In this document: piece after piece, positions 14,137 to 23,469 of the stretch
Position numbering within the stretch: the stretch's first letter is position 1
Layout of the letters: the number at the start of each line of letters is the position of its first letter
From: Stigmatella aurantiaca DW4/3-1
GTDB lineage: Bacteria; Myxococcota; Myxococcia; Myxococcales; Myxococcaceae
Assembly (NCBI RefSeq): GCF_000165485.1
Contig: NC_014623.1
Span: 5,412,893-5,476,892, forward strand
Length of the DNA stretch: 64,000 nucleotides
Direction: 5' to 3'
Position numbers and translations under genes: made by a program
Notes under the pieces: model-generated
Databases searched by the model: none
Told to the model about the DNA's origin: nothing
What the model saw: only the letters and a program-made list of their open reading frames with translations

Positions 14137-17100
14137 TCACCCCACCGCCCCTTCGAGTGCGTGGATCCGGAGGGCCTTGACGTTCAGAACCTTGCCGGAT
14201 CGCTCGAGGACGCCCTCGCCCACCAGGAACAGCGCCCCATGGATGTCGCGCCGGGAACGCTCGTAGACATCCGGGGGCACCACCAGGTTGGCGATCCCCG
14301 TCTCATCCTCCAGGGAGAGGAAACACATGCCCCTGGCCGTGGGGGGACGCTGCCGACAAATGAGCATGCCGCCCACGGCCACGCGTCTTCCGGAGGACAC
14401 GCGCTGAAGCCCCTCGGCGGAGACGGCGCCCAGCGTGCGCAGCGTGGGCCGCAACAGCTCCAGCGGGTGCTTCTCCAGGGACAGGCCCACCGTCTCGTAG
14501 TCCGCCGTCACCCGCTCGGCCACGCCCATGGGCGGCAGTTCCACCTGCGTGCCGTCCATGGACATCCCGAAGAACAGATCATCGGCGTCCAGGGGACCCA
14601 AGGCCTGGATCTCCCAGAGCGCCTGGCGCCGCGAGCCGCACAGTGAGGCCAGCGCCCCGGCCAGCGCCAGCCGCGTCAGTTCGTGGCGGGGGATGCGGGT
14701 CCGGCGGGCCACGTCTCCCAGGCAGGAGAAGCCCCCGGCCCGCGCCGCCGCCACGCGCTTTCCCGCCGCCTCGCCCAGGCCGCGCACCATGCGCAGCCCG
14801 AGGCGCAGCGCGCCCCCCTCTTCGAGGGTGCAGTCCCACCCTGAGTGGCGCACGTCCACCGGCCGCACCTCCACCCCGTGCCGGCGCGCGTCGGCCACCA
14901 GCGTGTGGGGCGCGTAGAAGCCCATGGGCTGGGAGTTGAGCAGCGCCGTGGTGAAGGCCTGCGGGTAGTGGCACTTGAGCCACGAGGAGGCGTAAGCAAT
15001 GAGCGCGAACGAGGCCGAGTGCGATTCGGGGAAGCCATAGTGGGCGAAGCCCCGGAACTGGGCGAACAGCTCCTCCATATAGGCGGCTGGGTAGCCCCGC
15101 TTCCGCCCGCCCTCCACGAAGCGCATGCGGTAGGGCTCCAGGAGTTGCTCGGCGCGCTTGTGGCCCAGCGCCCGCCGCAGCCCATCCGCCTCCCCCGCGG
15201 TGAAGCCCGCCGCCACCATGGCCAGCTTCATGGCCTGCTCCTGGAAGAGGGGCACGCCCAGCGTCTTCTCGAGGATGGCTTGAACGTCGGGCGTGGGGTA
15301 CGTGGGCACCTCTTCGCCGTTGCGCCGCCGCAGGTAGGGGTGGACCATGTTGCCCACGATGGGACCGGGGCGGATGAGGGCGATCTCGATCACCAGATCA
15401 TAGAAGGTGCGAGGCTTCAGGCGCGGCAGCATGTTCATCTGCGCCCGGCTCTCGATCTGGAACACCCCCACGGTGTCCGCCTCGCACAGCATGTCGTAGA
15501 CCTTCGGATCCTCCGGCGGGATGGTGGCCAGGGACAGCTCCCGCCCGAAGTGCTCGCGGATGAGGGCCAGGCACTTCGAGACCGCCGTGAGCATGCCCAG
15601 CGCCAGCAGATCCACCTTCAGCACGCCCAGGGCATTGGTGTCGTCCTTCTCCCACTGGATGACGGTGCGGCCCTTCATGGCCGCGTTCTCCACGGGGATG
15701 AGATCCACCAGCGGCTCGCGGGTGATGACGAAGCCCCCCACGTGGATGGAGACATGGCGGGGAAAGCCTTCCATCTCCCGCGCCAGCGTGAGCGTTTGCC
15801 TCACCCGCGAGTCGAACGCGGACAGCCCTGCCTCGACCAGCACCTCCGGGGTGACCTCGAAGCCCGAGGCCGCCGCCACCTTGGAGAGCCGGTCCACCTG
15901 ATCCAGGGACAACCCCAGGGACTTGCCCACCTCGCGCAGCGCCAGCCGTCCCCGGTAGCAGATGAATTCACACACCATGCCGGCGCGGTGCCGGCCGTGC
16001 TTCTCGTAGACGTACTGGAGCACCTCCTCGCGGCGCTCGTGCTCGAAGTCCACGTCGATGTCGGGGGGCTCCTTGCGCTCCATGCTCAAGAAGCGCTCGA
16101 AGAGCAGCCCCATGCGCACCGGATCGATGGCGGTGAGTTGGAGCGCGTAGCAGACCACCGAGTTCGCCGCGCTCCCCCGCCCCTGGCAGAGGATGCCTCG
16201 CGAGCGCGCGAAGCGGACGATGTCCCAGAGCGCCAGAAAGTACCCGGGGAAGTCCAACGCCTCGATGAGCCGCATCTCATGCTCGACCTGCTTGCGCACC
16301 TCGGGGGGCACGCCCGCCGGGTAGCGCACCCCGAGCCCCTCCTCGGTGAGCTGCCGCAGGTGTCCCATGGCCGTGAGCCCCGGCGGCAGGTCTTCCTCGG
16401 AGAAGTGATAGCGCAGGTCATCCAACGTGGCGTGGCAACGCTGGGCAATCTCCAGTGTGCGCTCGATCGCCTCGGGTCGATCCCGGAACAGCCGTGCCAT
16501 CTCCGCGGGAGACTTCAGTGTCCGCTCGGCGTTGGGCAACAGGCGCGTTCCCGCTTTGTCCACGGTCGTCTTGTGGCGGATGGCCGTGAGCACATCCTGG
16601 AGCGGCTGACGGCGCCGGTGGTGAACGTGGACATCGTTGTGCGCGCACAGCGGCACGCCCAGCTCCCGCGCCAGGGCCTCTGCCCGAGCCTCTCGGGGCC
16701 CATCCCCCGCGGACAGCGTGCGGCACAGACCGACATGGAAGCGTCCTGGGAAAGCCTCCGCCAAGCCGCCCACCTGTTCGATCGGGGCGGGATGGGGCAG
16801 CAGCGCGATCAGCCCTTCGGACCGCTCGGCCACCTCCCGCCAGGGGAGCCCCGTCTCGCCCTTGGGGTGGGCCATCCGGCTGGCGGACACCAACCGGCAC
16901 ATGTTGGCGTACCCGCCCGCGTCCATCGCGTACACCACCACGGGAGGACCCTCTGTCAGGGTCAGCTCGGTGCCCAGAATCAGCTTCAAGCCATGCTCCC
17001 GGGCAGCCAGGTGGGCCTTCACCACACCGTACAGCCCGTCCCCATCCGTCAACGCCAGGGCGGGCAGCCCCAACCGCGCGGCCGTGGCCACCAGCTCCTC

Positions 17101-17160
17101 GGGATGCGAAGCCCCTCGGAGAAAGGAGAAGTTGGAGCGGCAGACCAGCTCGGCGTACAC
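14137..17160 (-). CDS. dnaE2: Error-prone DNA polymerase III alpha-type subunit, DnaE2/ImuC
   Basis: A 1007-residue C-family DNA polymerase of the DnaE2 (ImuC) type, which extends DNA across lesions as part of the ImuA-ImuB-DnaE2 mutasome. The PHP domain (about 1-210) begins YAELVCRSNFSFLRGASHPEEL, a start typical of DnaE2. The palm carries the catalytic Asp residues in PPDIDVDFEHERREEVL (about 365) and a further Asp in KVDLLALGML; a helix-hairpin-helix region and an OB-fold (VAVGGMLICRQRPPTARGM) follow near the C-terminus. The length is normal for DnaE2, which is shorter than replicative DnaE. The start is GTG 17160, just inside a LexA-box-like palindrome at 17173-17188. Its partners imuB and imuA lie 4-6 kb away on the same strand, split off by five intervening genes on the other strand. 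Confidence 0.95.
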   Translation of the reverse strand: MYAELVCRSNFSFLRGASHPEELVATAARLGLPALALTDGDGLYGVVKAHLAAREHGLKLILGTELTLTEGPPVVVYAMDAGGYANMCRLVSASRMAHPKGETGLPWREVAERSEGLIALLPHPAPIEQVGGLAEAFPGRFHVGLCRTLSAGDGPREARAEALARELGVPLCAHNDVHVHHRRRQPLQDVLTAIRHKTTVDKAGTRLLPNAERTLKSPAEMARLFRDRPEAIERTLEIAQRCHATLDDLRYHFSEEDLPPGLTAMGHLRQLTEEGLGVRYPAGVPPEVRKQVEHEMRLIEALDFPGYFLALWDIVRFARSRGILCQGRGSAANSVVCYALQLTAIDPVRMGLLFERFLSMERKEPPDIDVDFEHERREEVLQYVYEKHGRHRAGMVCEFICYRGRLALREVGKSLGLSLDQVDRLSKVAAASGFEVTPEVLVEAGLSAFDSRVRQTLTLAREMEGFPRHVSIHVGGFVITREPLVDLIPVENAAMKGRTVIQWEKDDTNALGVLKVDLLALGMLTAVSKCLALIREHFGRELSLATIPPEDPKVYDMLCEADTVGVFQIESRAQMNMLPRLKPRTFYDLVIEIALIRPGPIVGNMVHPYLRRRNGEEVPTYPTPDVQAILEKTLGVPLFQEQAMKLAMVAAGFTAGEADGLRRALGHKRAEQLLEPYRMRFVEGGRKRGYPAAYMEELFAQFRGFAHYGFPESHSASFALIAYASSWLKCHYPQAFTTALLNSQPMGFYAPHTLVADARRHGVEVRPVDVRHSGWDCTLEEGGALRLGLRMVRGLGEAAGKRVAAARAGGFSCLGDVARRTRIPRHELTRLALAGALASLCGSRRQALWEIQALGPLDADDLFFGMSMDGTQVELPPMGVAERVTADYETVGLSLEKHPLELLRPTLRTLGAVSAEGLQRVSSGRRVAVGGMLICRQRPPTARGMCFLSLEDETGIANLVVPPDVYERSRRDIHGALFLVGEGVLERSGKVLNVKALRIHALEGAVG

Positions 17161-17780: not shown

Positions 17781-18847
17781 TGACGTTTTTGACCCTGTTG
17801 CTCATCCTCCTGGCCGTGGGGGCGAGCATTGCCATCGTCACCGGTCTGAGAACGGTTCCTCAGGCCAAGGTCATGGTGGTGGAACGGCTGGGGAAGTTCC
17901 ACCACGTGGCCCACAGTGGCCTGAACATCCTCATCCCCTTCGTGGACAGTCCCCGCGCCATCGAGATGCGCACGGGCAACCGCTATCTGCGCAGCAACAC
18001 GGTGGACCTGCGCGAGCAGGTCATGGGCTTCGACACCGTGCAAGTCATCACCCATGACAACGTGACCATGGAGGTGGGCTCGGTCATCTATTACCAGATC
18101 ATCGATCCGGCCAAGACGCTCTACCAGGTGGAGAACCTGGCGCTGGCCATCGAGCAGCTGACGATGACGAACCTGCGCAACATCATGGGCGGGCTGACGC
18201 TGGACCAGACGCTGACCAGCCGCGAGACGGTGAACACCAAGCTGCGCATGGTGCTGGACGAGGCCACGGAGAAGTGGGGTGTGAAGGTGACGCGCGTGGA
18301 GCTGCGCGAGATCGAACCCCCGCAGGCCATCAAGGACGCGATGGCCAAGCAGATGACGGCCGAGCGCGAGCGCCGCGCCGAGGTGACGAAGGCCGAGGGC
18401 GACAAGGCCGCGGCGATTCTCCAGGCGGAAGGCGAGAAGATCTCCCGGATCCTCCGCGCCGAGGCGGAGCGCGACGCGGAGGTCGCCCGTGCCGAGGGCC
18501 ACAAGCGCGCGGTGGTGCTGGAGGCCGAGGCGAAGGCGGAGGCCACGCGGCTGGTGTTCGAGGCGGTGCACGCTGGACGGGCCACGCCAGAGATCCTGGC
18601 ACTGCGCTATCTGGAGACGCTGCAGGAGCTGGGCAAGGGGGACAACAAGGTGTTCGTCCCGTACGAGGCCTCGGCCGCCCTGGGCAGCGTGGGCATGCTC
18701 AAGGAGCTGTTTGCCAAGGAGGCCTCCCCTGCCCCGGCCAGCAAGCCAACCCCTTCTGCCTCGTCGCTGAGCGCCCAGGCCCTCGCGCGCAGCGTGGCAC
18801 AGCCTCAGCCCGTGCGCCGCGGCCCCTCGCCGACCCAGGACGAGTAG
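17780..18847 (+). CDS. SPFH/stomatin-like membrane protein
   Basis: A 355-residue stomatin/prohibitin homologue. One N-terminal membrane anchor (TFLTLLLILLAVGASIAIV) is followed by the SPFH domain beginning AKVMVVERLGKFHHVAHSGLNILIPFVD. A long charged coiled coil follows (about 190-270, AEGDKAAAILQAEGEKISRIL and similar repeats), then a Ser/Pro/Ala-rich tail. These proteins oligomerise in the membrane and act with NfeD proteins. The start at ATG 17780 overlaps the nfeD-like stop, so translation is coupled. The length is a little above the usual 300 because of the tail. Confidence 0.93.
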   Translation: MTFLTLLLILLAVGASIAIVTGLRTVPQAKVMVVERLGKFHHVAHSGLNILIPFVDSPRAIEMRTGNRYLRSNTVDLREQVMGFDTVQVITHDNVTMEVGSVIYYQIIDPAKTLYQVENLALAIEQLTMTNLRNIMGGLTLDQTLTSRETVNTKLRMVLDEATEKWGVKVTRVELREIEPPQAIKDAMAKQMTAERERRAEVTKAEGDKAAAILQAEGEKISRILRAEAERDAEVARAEGHKRAVVLEAEAKAEATRLVFEAVHAGRATPEILALRYLETLQELGKGDNKVFVPYEASAALGSVGMLKELFAKEASPAPASKPTPSASSLSAQALARSVAQPQPVRRGPSPTQDE

Positions 18848-18952
18848 CGGCGCCCGTCCTCCCCTGAAGGATCCGGGAACCGGGGCGGCCTGGCTGGCCT
18901 CGGTGGGCGCGTGGCGGCTGTCGCGCGCTTGCGCCGGGGCGGCCCCGCGACT

Positions 18953-19012
18953 ATGATTTTCGCCAATCACCCTCACGCGAGGTCTGAAACGCCAGTGAAG
19001 CTGAACGCCTGA
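18953..19012 (+). CDS. Candidate leader peptide of the ABC-F gene (19 residues)
   Basis: A short ORF, MIFANHPHARSETPVKLNA, starts at ATG 18953. Its TGA (19010-19012) lies inside the 5' arm of a long-range stem whose 3' arm reaches the Shine-Dalgarno sequence of the ABC-F gene. Position, size and overlap with the hairpin resemble leader peptides that control antibiotic-resistance ABC-F and erm genes by ribosome stalling. The weakness is the absence of a strong ribosome-binding site before its ATG (a GC-rich hairpin precedes it). Expression is inferred only from layout. Confidence 0.35.
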   Translation: MIFANHPHARSETPVKLNA

Positions 19013-19066
19013 AATCCGCGGCCTTTGTGCTTTTTCGCACGCCGGGTCCTGCCCGGCCGGATTCAG
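19009..19066 (+). promoter_or_regulatory. Candidate attenuator: nested hairpins before the ABC-F gene
   Basis: An outer stem pairs CTGAAATCCG (19009-19018, one bulged A) with CGGATTCAG (19058-19066). Inside it are a small hairpin GTGC/GCAC (19027-19040) and a strong one, GCCGGG TCCTG CCCGGC (19041-19057). The 3' arm of the outer stem overlaps the first two bases of AGGAG (19065-19069), which is the ribosome-binding site 7 bases before the ABC-F start. The leader ORF stop lies in the 5' arm. This suggests translational control; no U-run follows the hairpins, so a transcription terminator is unlikely. Confidence 0.4.
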
Positions 19067-19076
19067 GAGTCGCTTC

Positions 19077-20576
19077 ATGCCGTCCCTTCGCGCTCATGGC
19101 GTGTCTTTCGCTTTTTCAGATGCTGTTCCCCTGCTGACCGGAGTGGAGTTTCACCTCTCGCCTGGCTGGACGGGCCTCGTGGGCGCCAATGGCGCTGGCA
19201 AGTCCACGCTGCTGCGCTTGCTGGCCAGGGAGCTGATGCCCACCGAGGGTCATCTCCAATACGAGCCTCGCGAGCCCCTCATCCGCTTCTGTCCGCAGGG
19301 TGTCGAGGCCCTGACGGAAGACATCACCGCCTTCGCGGAATCCTGGGAGGCGGTGGCGCGGCGGGTGCTCGGGCAGCTCGGGTTGGATCCAGGCGCCCTC
19401 GAGCGCTGGACCACCCTGTCTCCCGGTGAGCGCAAGCGCTGGCAGGTGGGCGCGGCGCTGGCGAGCGAGCCCGATGTGCTGCTGCTCGATGAGCCCACCA
19501 ACCACCTGGATGCCGAGGCGCGCGAGTGGCTCATCTCCGCGCTGCGCCGGTTCCGCGGCATCGGCATCCTCGTGTCCCATGACCGGGTGTTGCTGGAGAC
19601 CCTGACCACCCACACGCTGCGCGTCCATGCGGGGGAGGCCCGGCTCTGGCCCGGGGCCTATGCCGCCGCCCGGGAGACGTGGGAAGCCGAGCGCGAAGGA
19701 CAGCTCGCTGCCCGGCAGCAAGCCCAGGAAGCCCACCGGCGTGTGCGTCAACAACTCGATCAGGCCCGCCGCGAGCAGCAGTCCGCCAACGCCGCGCGCA
19801 ATGCAGGCCGACGGATGAAGGACAAGAACGACAATGATGCGCGCTCCATGGGCGCCAAGGTCGTCGCGGGCTGGGCGGAGAATCACGCGGGCCGGCGTGT
19901 GGGGGTGCTGCGAGACGAGGCGGAGCGGGCCGCCGAGGCCATCGGCGAGTTCCAGGCCGACAAGACGTTGGGTCGCTCGGTCTTCGTGGACTACGTGCGC
20001 TCACCCAACCCATGGCTGTTCACCCTGGAGTCCTACACCTTGCGCGCGGGAGAGGTGGAGCTGCTCGGCCCCGTGAGCCTCGGCGTGGGCCGGGACAGCC
20101 GCATCCGCATCGAGGGACCCAATGGGGCTGGCAAGACGACCCTGCTGCGGGCCTTGCTGGAACACGCCCGGGTTCCCCTGGAGCGGGTGCTCTATCTGCC
20201 CCAGGACGTGAGCCCGGAGGAAGCCCGGGAGGCATTGGAGACGGTGCGGGAGCTTCCACCTGAAGAGCGCGGGCGGGTGCTGTCCCTGGTGTCCGCGCTG
20301 GGGGTAGACCCCGAGCGGCTGCTGGCCTCCGAGCAGCCCTCACCGGGCGAGGCGCGCAAACTGCTGATCGCCCGGGGGCTGGGACAACATGCCTGGGCAC
20401 TGGTGCTGGACGAGCCCACCAACCACTTGGACTTGCCCTCCATCGAACGCCTGGAAGCGGCACTGGCCAACTACCCGGGAGCCCTGCTGATGGTGACGCA
20501 TGACACCCACTTCGCGCGCCGGTGTACCACGGAGCGGTGGCTCGTGGAGGGAGGCCAGATTTCCAGCGCCCATTAA
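19077..20576 (+). CDS. ABC-F family ATP-binding protein
   Basis: A 499-residue soluble protein with two ABC domains and no membrane segments. The first has Walker A GANGAGKSTLLRLL (about residue 38), signature LSPGERKRWQVGAAL and Walker B VLLLDEPTNHLD; the second has GPNGAGKTTLLRALL (about 345), PSPGEARKLLIARGL and ALVLDEPTNHLD. The charged linker between them (about 205-290, with RRMKDKNDNDARSMGAK) is the P-site tRNA interaction motif region of ABC-F factors, which bind the ribosome; some are housekeeping, others displace antibiotics. The linker and the leader arrangement upstream hint at a resistance-type member, but the class cannot be settled from sequence alone. AGGAG lies 7 bases before ATG 19077. 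Confidence 0.92.
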   Translation: MPSLRAHGVSFAFSDAVPLLTGVEFHLSPGWTGLVGANGAGKSTLLRLLARELMPTEGHLQYEPREPLIRFCPQGVEALTEDITAFAESWEAVARRVLGQLGLDPGALERWTTLSPGERKRWQVGAALASEPDVLLLDEPTNHLDAEAREWLISALRRFRGIGILVSHDRVLLETLTTHTLRVHAGEARLWPGAYAAARETWEAEREGQLAARQQAQEAHRRVRQQLDQARREQQSANAARNAGRRMKDKNDNDARSMGAKVVAGWAENHAGRRVGVLRDEAERAAEAIGEFQADKTLGRSVFVDYVRSPNPWLFTLESYTLRAGEVELLGPVSLGVGRDSRIRIEGPNGAGKTTLLRALLEHARVPLERVLYLPQDVSPEEAREALETVRELPPEERGRVLSLVSALGVDPERLLASEQPSPGEARKLLIARGLGQHAWALVLDEPTNHLDLPSIERLEAALANYPGALLMVTHDTHFARRCTTERWLVEGGQISSAH

Positions 20577-20641: not shown

Positions 20642-21022
20642 ATGCGCATTCAGTCCACCCTGATGGCTTCTCTTCTCGGTTCGTTGTTGCTTGCCACCCC
20701 CGTGCTCGCCGCCCAGGAGACCGCCCCCACGGGCCAGGCTCCCGCCGGGGAGTGCCACGGTGGAAAGCAAAAGGGGCACCATGGCCGGTGGGGCCACAAG
20801 GGCCGGCACCTGGACCGCGCGGTGCAGGAGGGACGGCTCACGCAAGCCCAGGCGGATCAATTCAAGGCCGAGGCCCGCCAGCTTCGCGAAGAGGCCCGGG
20901 CCCTGCGCCAGAGCAGCGGCGGGCAGCTCTCCGACGCCCAGAAGGAGCAACTCCGGCAGCGCCGCCATGCCTTGCGTGAGAAGGTGAAGGCCGCCATGGG
21001 GCCTCCTCCCTCCGGCGCCTGA
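20642..21022 (+). CDS. Small periplasmic His/Lys-rich helical protein
   Basis: A 126-residue exported protein. The signal peptide is about residues 1-23 (ends PVLAAQ). It is followed by a His/Lys/Gly-rich patch (CHGGKQKGHHGRWGHKGRH, about 38-58) that could bind metal, then two charged amphipathic helices (LTQAQADQFKAEARQLREE and LSDAQKEQLRQRRHALREK). The layout recalls Spy/CpxP-like periplasmic proteins, but I do not see the LTxxQ repeats clearly enough to name it. It is 65 bases behind the ABC-F gene, and its stop lies 5 bases from the convergent imuB stop. Confidence 0.75.
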   Translation: MRIQSTLMASLLGSLLLATPVLAAQETAPTGQAPAGECHGGKQKGHHGRWGHKGRHLDRAVQEGRLTQAQADQFKAEARQLREEARALRQSSGGQLSDAQKEQLRQRRHALREKVKAAMGPPPSGA

Positions 21023-21027
21023 GGCGG

Positions 21028-22539
21028 TCAGTCGAAGAGCCCCTGAAGATAAAAGCGCCCATCCCGCGCATCCCGGAAGACCCAGGCAGGGCCCAACCCT
21101 TCGAAGTGGACCCGGTAGTAGTCCCGGCTGAAGGGCGTCTCGGCCCACCACTCTCCGCTCAGGCGCTCGGGACCGGCCATCGCCGTCACCCGGCGTCTCC
21201 GGCCCAGCAGCCAAGCGGCGAGCAGCTCACCTGACTCGGTGACCTCGGCGTCCAGCGGGGCGGGAGCCTCCAAAAGACGCGCCGGGCGCTCTCGAAACGC
21301 CTCGTCCACGGACACCTCCACCTCCTCCTTGGGGAGGAGTTCCCCCGCCATGCCCCGCGGGGAGGAAGGCGGCCGGAAGGCCCGGGCCACATAGGCCTGC
21401 TCGGGGCGATGCACGGCCTCCAGCGCCGCACAGAAGAGGGAGCCCTCCCCCAGCGTCGTGGCCAGCCTCGACAGCACCACCTCCAGGGCCGCATCCCCTT
21501 CCGGAGCGTCTCCGAGGGCGAGCTGCTGTCCTCGATCCTCGCTGTGCTCCTCGACCCGGATCGAGAGCGCGGCCACGGGGTTCTCCAGTTTCAAGTCGGA
21601 GAGCCGGTGCCTCGCCAGATCCAGCAGGAGCTTCGAGCGTGCCGTGGGCCTCGCCAGGGTCAGGGGGAGCTCCACCTGCCCTTTGGGATCCAACCGCAAG
21701 ACGAAGGACAACTGGACGGCGGCCCTGCGCCGCCCGGCCAGCCGCGCACAGATCCGGTCCAGCACCGTCTTGAGGGCGAACTGAAGGGGCTCGAACGACT
21801 CTGCGGGCCACTCCAGCGTCATGCGCTCCTCCAGAACCTCCTCCAGCACCGCCGCCACGAAGGGTGTGTCATCCCGGCCTTGGCAGAGCATGTGCGCACG
21901 CAGCCCCTCGGCGCCTCCTCGCGCCGTCACCGCACCGGCGGGCAACGCGGCCACCTCTCCAAGGGTGCTGAACCCGAGCGCCGTGAAGGGCGCCCGGGAG
22001 GCCTCCGCCAATGCCAGGAGCGGGAGGGAGGCCAATGCCGGGGCGCTCTCTTGGGGCGCAACGACTTGCACGGGACGCGTTCCGTGGCGGGCCAGCGCCT
22101 GGCTGGTGAACAGCTCCGACGCCACCACCGCCCTGCCCCGGTACCCATGGCCTGAGCACACCTCCAGCGCCCTCAGGCACAGGCCCTCCTCTCCCCCAAA
22201 GAGGTGCGCCGCGCTCGCGTCGAACCACAGGCCATCCGGCGCGGCGAGCTGAAAGGCCGGCGCGACACACAGCAGGGCCTCGCCCAACGAACTCAGCGCC
22301 CGTGCCTCCTCCTCGGCCCGGTAGGCGAAGTGCTGGAGGGCGGGCTCCAGGGCATTCGCGGCCGTCAGCGTCATGCCCGCCCGTGCCCCAGCTTTCAGGG
22401 CGCTCGTCGAGGCAAAGGCCACCCGCCGCTGACCGCGCACCTCCTCCACCAACGCGAAGGGCTTGCCCGCCAGCCCTGGTGACTCGATGACCTTCCGCTG
22501 CGCTGGAAAGCGCGCGAAGTGCAGATAGCCCCACCGCAT
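21028..22539 (-). CDS. imuB: ImuB-like Y-family polymerase homologue (mutasome hub)
   Basis: A 503-residue member of the ImuB branch of Y-family polymerases. The N-terminus (RWGYLHFARFPAQRK) lacks the catalytic D-x-D-x-F of active Y polymerases, as in other ImuB proteins, so it should act as a non-catalytic hub linking DnaE2, ImuA and the beta clamp. Fingers/palm remnants (FASTSALKAGARAGMTLTAANAL) and a little-finger region (VQLSFVLRLDPKGQVELPLTLA) are visible. QQLALGD (about 335) is a candidate clamp-binding motif. The C-terminal tail GEWWAETPFSRDYYRVHFEG, with FRDARDGRFYLQGLFD at the end, is typical. It lies 24 bases downstream of imuA on the same strand. Confidence 0.9.
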   Translation of the reverse strand: MRWGYLHFARFPAQRKVIESPGLAGKPFALVEEVRGQRRVAFASTSALKAGARAGMTLTAANALEPALQHFAYRAEEEARALSSLGEALLCVAPAFQLAAPDGLWFDASAAHLFGGEEGLCLRALEVCSGHGYRGRAVVASELFTSQALARHGTRPVQVVAPQESAPALASLPLLALAEASRAPFTALGFSTLGEVAALPAGAVTARGGAEGLRAHMLCQGRDDTPFVAAVLEEVLEERMTLEWPAESFEPLQFALKTVLDRICARLAGRRRAAVQLSFVLRLDPKGQVELPLTLARPTARSKLLLDLARHRLSDLKLENPVAALSIRVEEHSEDRGQQLALGDAPEGDAALEVVLSRLATTLGEGSLFCAALEAVHRPEQAYVARAFRPPSSPRGMAGELLPKEEVEVSVDEAFRERPARLLEAPAPLDAEVTESGELLAAWLLGRRRRVTAMAGPERLSGEWWAETPFSRDYYRVHFEGLGPAWVFRDARDGRFYLQGLFD

Positions 22540-22563: not shown

Positions 22564-23445
22564 TCAGCGCGACACCGGGCCCGCCCCCAGACGGGAGCGG
22601 AAAGACGGCATCGCCGCATCGCGGCCCGGGCGCTGCCCCTGGATGCCACACACCCCGTTGCGGCGTTCCCAGGAGCGCCCCCGGTAGAACTCCGGCATGA
22701 GCTCTTCCTCACCGGTGGGCAGCTCTTCCGCGGGCCGCAGGGCGGCAGCATTCTCCGTCCCCAGCGCGGGATAGAAGGCGTGCAACGGCAACACGGCCCG
22801 GGTGCCCAGACCTCCCTGCCTGCTGCGCACCACTTCCACCGAGAGCTGGTCCGCCCCCTCGGACTCGGTCCTCAGGCGCGTCACGCCGTCCGCCGGAGCG
22901 CTGGGGGACGACAGCAGCAGCAAGAGGCTGCCCCCTCGGAAGGCGGCATCCGCCAGCTTTTTGCCCTCCGCCAAGGACAGGCGCACGCCGGGCGCCTGTC
23001 CCTGCCCCCCCGCTGCCAGCCCCTGGGAGAGATCCAGCACCACGCAAGCGAAGGCCCCGCTGCGGGCGAGCTGCACCGCGGTCCAGGCCAGCTGTGCCGG
23101 CAGCTTGGGGCGCACGATGAGCAGCCGCGCCAGATCCACCCCCATGGCCGCCGCGGCGGGGGGATAGAGTTCTTTGGGTCCATCCACCCAGGCGCACAAC
23201 CGGCGCTCCTGGTGGGCCGCCGCCACCGCGCGCAGCGCCAGGCTGGTGCGGCCTGAAGCCATCTCCCCACACAGCTCCAGGGCTTGTCCCAGGGGGAACC
23301 CCCCCGAGGGCAGCAGGGCGTCCACCTCCTCGACGCCCGTACGCAGCGTGGCCAGAGCGCTGCGCGGCGCCGCCTGGAGCTGGCGGATCCGTTCGCGCAG
23401 CTGCTCCACCACCGCCCCCGTCCGATCCTCCGCTGCAGCGCTCAT
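22564..23445 (-). CDS. imuA: ImuA-like RecA-fold protein
   Basis: About 293 residues. The RecA-like core begins LRTGVEEVDALLPSGGFPLGQALELCGEMASGRTSLALRAV; the P-loop is degenerate (GEMASGRTS, with Arg where Lys is usual). FACVVLDLSQGL takes the Walker B position, and the C-terminus is rich in Arg. ImuA/SulA-like proteins work with ImuB and DnaE2 in SOS mutagenesis. I chose ATG 23445 over the adjoining GTG at 23448 because AGGAGG ends four bases before it. A LexA-box-like palindrome lies 24 bases upstream (23470-23485). imuA and imuB form a two-gene operon, while dnaE2 is located elsewhere in the window. Confidence 0.88.
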   Translation of the reverse strand: MSAAAEDRTGAVVEQLRERIRQLQAAPRSALATLRTGVEEVDALLPSGGFPLGQALELCGEMASGRTSLALRAVAAAHQERRLCAWVDGPKELYPPAAAAMGVDLARLLIVRPKLPAQLAWTAVQLARSGAFACVVLDLSQGLAAGGQGQAPGVRLSLAEGKKLADAAFRGGSLLLLLSSPSAPADGVTRLRTESEGADQLSVEVVRSRQGGLGTRAVLPLHAFYPALGTENAAALRPAEELPTGEEELMPEFYRGRSWERRNGVCGIQGQRPGRDAAMPSFRSRLGAGPVSR

Positions 23446-23469
23446 CACCCCTCCTCACGAACCCAGCGC

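Follow-up and report, generated by a model that had tools for sequence, protein, structure and literature searches.

In Bacillus subtilis, the ABC-F gene vmlR is preceded by a very short upstream open reading frame (uORF), encoding MIN, and by a hairpin that sequesters the Shine-Dalgarno (SD) sequence; initiation on this uORF is required for induction by lincomycin, and other tripeptides work too (PMC9226507). The vmlR leader also employs an intrinsic terminator and RNA polymerase pausing (PMC9226507). In Clostridioides difficile, cplR has the uORF MRI and an SD hidden by a stem, in a Gram-positive leader that holds a terminator as well, and translational attenuation is sufficient for its repression; the uORFs of VmlR2 and LsaA encode MK[L/Q] and MAGN, respectively (PMC10201436). 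In Streptomyces, the are5sc and tiaA leaders are reported to form terminator/antiterminator folds (PMC12421871). For cfr of the staphylococcal plasmid pSCFS1, two overlapping uORFs and an occluded ribosome-binding site (RBS) have been proposed by its authors (PMC8752094), and Gram-negative drug-sensing uORFs are known for another gene, namely TopAI-YjhQ of Escherichia coli (PMC12121999).

The ABC-F gene studied here lies on the forward strand at 19077-20576 of the window, by which we mean the whole stretch of 64,000 nucleotides from Stigmatella aurantiaca DW4/3-1 that was analysed. As in vmlR and cplR, the gene follows a very short uORF (three to four codons in the cplR type), and its SD can be hidden by a stem; the proposed switch would work like those attenuators, minus their terminator. 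Unlike in vmlR, the uORF stop codon sits directly in the anti-SD arm, and the leader showed no terminator, which also sets it apart from cplR and from the are5sc and tiaA folds. Compared with cplR, the uORFs are mostly of five codons, with mostly TTG starts in the group closest to the window; three-codon and TTG-start uORFs on ABC-F genes have precedent (PMC10201436, PMC9226507, PMC12421871). Comparison of the leaders argues with good confidence for a translation attenuator, in which ribosome arrest on the uORF would free the RBS of the ABC-F gene, and the signal would likely be an agent that arrests ribosomes early.

The ABC-F gene and its neighbourhood

The 499-aa product matches ABC_tran over two stretches (Pfam), i.e. 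tandem ATP-binding domains, and its Pfam matches include no membrane-domain family; tandem ABC domains without a transmembrane part are a trait of ARE ABC-F proteins. Its top NCBIfam model is ribo_prot_ABC_F (NF000355), at 303.9 bits, below the cut-off of 380. Since the protein misses this curated ribosomal-protection cut-off, we do not call it ARE-ABCF and describe it only as ribosome-protection-like, with a putative role in resistance. At E ≤ 1e-60, 79 of the 96 family-group genomes carry the gene, as do 95 of 145 in the order and 98 of 195 in the phylum sample; scanning a collection with the protein returned only relatives of at most 30% identity, whose upstream regions were uninformative. 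The loci read come from 94 of the 98 matching genomes of the phylum sample (fragments in G051, G056, G074 and G161 were excluded), and the main ABC-F starts were placed by aligning with the window protein and taking the nearest start codon.

On the 3' side of the gene, a small ORF (20642-21022, forward strand) has a signal-peptide-like start, judged by eye, and no Pfam match. By their Pfam families, the genes that flank the NfeD/SPFH/ABC-F stretch on the opposite strand encode polymerase III alpha (14137-17160), a Y-family (IMS) polymerase-like protein (21028-22539) and a RecA-like protein (22564-23448). We take this set to resemble a split ImuA-ImuB-DnaE2 mutagenesis cassette.

The mini-uORF and the SD-hiding helix

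The original prediction was of a 19-codon leader ORF that ends inside a stem touching the ABC-F RBS. A leader ORF with its stop in such a stem is strongly supported by the 94 loci, but the specific leader was wrong. The conserved uORF has five codons, GTG AAG CTG AAC GCC TGA (18995-19012, forward strand; MKLNA), the final five of the longer frame. A uORF of two to five codons occurs in 91 of the 92 ABC-F loci whose upstream sequence spans 115 nt or more (it is too short in L047 and L090), as against 15.6% of 4600 dinucleotide shuffles; the loci are related, and their counts are not independent. The remaining locus, L095 (G124), has an ABC-F ortholog with no two-to-five-codon uORF at the usual place; its start may be misannotated or the leader lost.

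Among the 91 uORFs, the start codon is TTG in 56, ATG in 29 and GTG in 6, and the stop is TGA in 81, TAG in 9 and TAA in 1. For this tally the aligned mini-ORF was used in L039 and L042, where the script favoured another one by energy, and where in-frame starts are nested (from L077 upwards) the inner ATG was taken. The 62 loci of the close group, with 56 distinct leaders, have T, G or A as the first base of the start codon, always followed by TG, and an invariant CTGA at the stop. The 29 distant uORF-bearing loci start with ATG in 28 cases and with GTG in L094, run for two to five codons and end with TGA, TAG or, once, TAA. It is the length and position of the leader peptide that are kept among orthologues, but not its sequence: 40 different peptides occur; of the 73 with five codons, 64 have K or R at the second position, and the remainder is more variable. 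As a control, 52 further ORFs of the window with an SD in front were taken mechanically, antisense ORFs included; a uORF of this type was found before 9 and one with SD pairing before 7, the ABC-F locus being the strongest. For other ABC proteins of the same genome (six loci), whose starts are uncertain, one of five scanned ORFs has a mini-ORF with SD pairing.

A small hairpin, CCTC-ACGC-GAGG (18971-18982, forward strand), appears in the fold 5' of the uORF. Its GAGG (18979-18982) is the best candidate SD for the uORF, at a long spacing of 12 nt from the start codon, and is almost invariant in the 56 distinct leaders; in many distant loci, the uORF's own SD is 12 nt off or not evident by eye. 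A second five-codon TTG mini-ORF (such as MTFPR) lies 3' of the conserved uORF, 63-65 nt 5' of the ABC-F start, in L022, L024, L026, L027, L029, L030, L034, L035, L038, L039 and L042.

Upstream of these elements is a promoter-like site (18929-18957, forward strand), with TTGCGC (18929-18934) as -35 box and TATGAT (18952-18957) as -10 box, 17 nt apart. The pattern TTGCNC-N16-18-TATNNT, devised after the site was seen, has a single match in the 64-kb window, with 0.13 expected; a strict sigma-70 scan gave no promoter. TTGC and TAT are kept at the same spacing in L015-L021. The -10 position reads TATATT, TATATC or TATACC in L015 and L018-L021, TATGCT in L016 and TATGGT in L017, with the ATG out of frame in the last two; L016 has an in-frame TTG near the position of the window's ATG. 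Judging from this site, transcription would begin at about 18963, which would leave ATG 18953 outside the transcript. A start downstream of 18960 had been named beforehand as evidence against an attenuator; the predicted start probably lies there, and the attenuator nonetheless stands because the conserved uORF is farther downstream. That the 19-codon peptide is translated and stalls ribosomes is highly improbable. Its frame is indeed open in the window, from ATG 18953 to TGA 19010, but this ATG is in frame in one of the eight closest loci, the window itself, and falls inside the -10-like TATGAT, on which grounds the longer leader was rejected.

The anti-SD arm, CCTGAAATCCG (19008-19018, forward strand), is supported by the fold and by conservation and contains the uORF stop TGA (19010-19012). 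Its partner, the 3' arm CGGATTCAGG (19058-19067, forward strand), was found in the fold and in the named-helix test described below, and overlaps the SD of the ABC-F gene, AGGAG (19065-19069, forward strand). The fold bears out the stem first proposed between 19009-19018 and 19058-19066, together with the stop codon in its 5' arm, the two inner hairpins and the contact with AGGAG; the full helix has 10 bp and one bulged A. In the minimum-energy fold of the window sequence only, an outer helix joins GTGAAGC (18995-19001) to GCTTCAT (19072-19078), forward strand, and reaches two bases into the ABC-F start codon.

By itself, the window sequence is only mildly unusual in structure, with fold z-scores of -2.38, -2.59 and -2.04 (3, 3 and 7 of 200 shuffles fold as well) and an equally good upstream SD partner in 151 of 1000 shuffles; conservation lifts it far above chance. 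Pairing of the uORF stop region with the SD reaches -8 kcal/mol or better in 89 of the 92 loci, which are related, versus 12% of shuffles, the misses being L082 (-7.7), L091 (-6.1) and L095 (no uORF). Identical leaders were counted separately here, as in the uORF and codon tallies, and collapsed in alignment A1 (56 rows). In A1, nine pairs of the helix, named by hand for the test and off register for the window's clade because of its bulged A, are paired in 90.1% of cells, as against 85.4% in shuffles (none of 500 reaches it) and at most 51.1% in slid registers. Cells changed on both sides number 17, versus 5.5 in shuffles (0/500), and compensatory changes occur in two of the nine pairs, UA to AU (8 rows) and CG to GC (9 rows); three pairs never vary. 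Two of the five helix measures, pairs with a double change and pair types, are no better than in the shuffles (432/500). The pairing in 89 loci and the compensatory changes agree with the expectation that the stem would be conserved and covary upstream of orthologues. RNAalifold found zero pairs on the raw alignment, in our opinion because of the bulged A in the window's clade and loops of unequal length.

A covariance model built on A1 detected 3 of 12 held-out loci at E < 0.01 and at the expected place (L110, 2.3e-12; L094, 4.8e-5; L107, 0.0093), in a search that covered 53 chosen loci. No second copy of the leader was found in the same genome, where the next match (E 0.49) has no sensible layout. 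The model gave 14 weak matches in other genomes, and the seven inspected by eye (in G100, G081, G072, G141, G047, G046 and G008) are apparent chance or coding sequence. A known RNA family was rejected as the identity of the leader, since Rfam has no match in the window at gathering score.

The helix alone might be the conserved element, acting as a plain brake on translation, with the mini-ORF a by-product of SD pairing. In close relatives the TGA falls inside the helix, so pairing alone could keep it, but the start codon column holds TG while its first base alone varies, the frame stays the same where stops shift to TAG and TAA, and the ATG-GCC-stop leaders described below use all three stops within otherwise very similar sequence. 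We regard the plain brake as very unlikely, and a switch made of uORF and SD-hiding helix as very likely, on the basis of sequence conservation.

Proposed mode of translation attenuation

The leader showed no intrinsic terminator: the sole terminator-like site in 18830-19130 lies at 19089-19103, in coding sequence (0.5 expected). Transcription attenuation by such a terminator was thus rejected, and its absence from the leader points to control of translation. Pairing of the stop region of the uORF (18995-19012) with the ABC-F SD, for which potential and conservation were computed, would keep ABC-F synthesis low. A ribosome arrested at the start or first codons of the uORF would cover the anti-SD arm, so that the RBS would be freed and ABC-F made; judging from studied ABC-F proteins, the product may then relieve arrested ribosomes, closing the loop. 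At any position on the five-codon ORF, a ribosome hides the anti-SD arm wholly or in large part, and therefore arrest at any codon should suffice.

Folding with and without a parked ribosome, a check suggested with the original prediction, raised the modelled accessibility of the SD modestly in the window, from 0.21 to 0.38-0.42, but lowered it in some loci. The median over 91 loci moved from 0.20 to 0.28, and the gain exceeded 0.2 in 29 of the 91 with the ribosome at the start codon and in 27 with it at the last codon. The model weakly supports the idea that arrest at any codon would release the SD; in GC-rich RNA a released SD may pair elsewhere, which could explain the modest gain.

Cfr-like genes and the proposed inducing signal

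A search of 142 genomes of the order at E ≤ 1e-60 found Cfr-like (23S rRNA methyltransferase) genes in eight, and all of them stand behind leaders of this kind; the window's own genome has no match at that threshold. Seven of the leaders are of the ATG-GCC-stop type and one, in G003, has the uORF TTG CGC CTG AAC TCC TGA (MRLNS) and was found by the covariance model (E 1.5e-10). In this genome (locus L110), the leader is followed by a 32-codon ORF whose start is ABC-F-like, as judged by eye, and then by the Cfr-like radical SAM gene. The L110 protein, the one that was scanned, reaches 374.7 bits with TIGR04432, the Cfr model, below its cut-off of 550, versus 233.8 with the RlmN model; it and its relatives are accordingly termed Cfr-like only. 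An ORF 3' of it (L110:3587-4723) resembles hormone-sensitive lipases; its resemblance to chloramphenicol hydrolase is weaker (122 bits, cut-off 500).

The ATG-GCC-stop leaders consist of a hairpin, ATG GCC, a stop and an arm able to pair with the next SD region. The stop is TAA in L122, L125 and L127, TAG in L120, L128 and L129, and TGA in L123. Such a leader also stands 5' of a 497-codon ABC-F ORF in G143 (L105). The ORF in the place of the ABC-F gene has 122, 84, 92 and 217 codons in L120, L122, L125 and L127, respectively, and in L123 the 371-codon Cfr-like gene is itself the first ORF that follows the leader. The former SD and start are missing from L128 and L129, which also show the weakest pairing (-13.5 and -11.3). 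The cfr gene of pSCFS1 shares the uORFs and the occluded RBS, as its authors proposed, but has two overlapping uORFs, whereas the Cfr-like genes here follow an ABC-F-type leader (PMC8752094). We see an even chance that an old, vertically kept early-arrest sensor of this lineage, made of a two-to-five-codon uORF and an SD-hiding helix, runs the core ABC-F gene, and that its ATG-GCC-stop version runs an ABC-F/Cfr-like operon whose ABC-F gene decayed and whose sensor was kept, once directly 5' of the Cfr-like gene.

By methylating A2503, Cfr confers resistance to drugs with binding sites near the peptidyl transferase centre (PMC8752094). Because the Cfr-like genes share these leaders, drugs acting at this centre (lincosamides, pleuromutilins and streptogramin A) are the signal that we somewhat favour. 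The uORF keeps its length and position and not its peptide, which makes it likely that the inducing agent stops ribosomes right after initiation; an unconserved peptide would fit drugs of that kind better than macrolide stalling on a nascent chain.

The same switch might respond to something other than an antibiotic, if the protein were a core EttA-like factor that senses slow initiation or early elongation and regulates itself through the uORF. EttA has been reported to act on the leader peptide MgtL (PMC11282234), the gene here is widespread by descent rather than sporadic (as its 79 family genomes indicate), and its best solved-structure matches by sequence include the housekeeping proteins Uup and YheS. 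Those two, however, match in two stretches, whereas LsaA and VmlR match in one uninterrupted stretch, the top NCBIfam model is one of ribosomal protection, and the same kind of leader stands before Cfr-like genes. We therefore consider an EttA-like factor with a non-antibiotic signal rather unlikely, and retain a peptidyl-transferase-centre drug as the favoured inducer.

A literature search, with most subscription papers outside its reach, gave no report of such an attenuator among the matches listed. Our results would extend the control of ABC-F genes by short uORFs, described for Gram-positive hosts, to an apparently Gram-negative predatory lineage, in a form that is apparently purely translational and whose uORFs mostly start with codons other than AUG. 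They predict that these bacteria meet or make drugs directed at the peptidyl transferase centre. As a minimal system, the ATG-GCC-stop leaders may serve to ask which drugs a two-codon ORF can sense; if the proposal is true, few regulatory ORFs that act as a drug sensor would be smaller than one of two codons and a stop.
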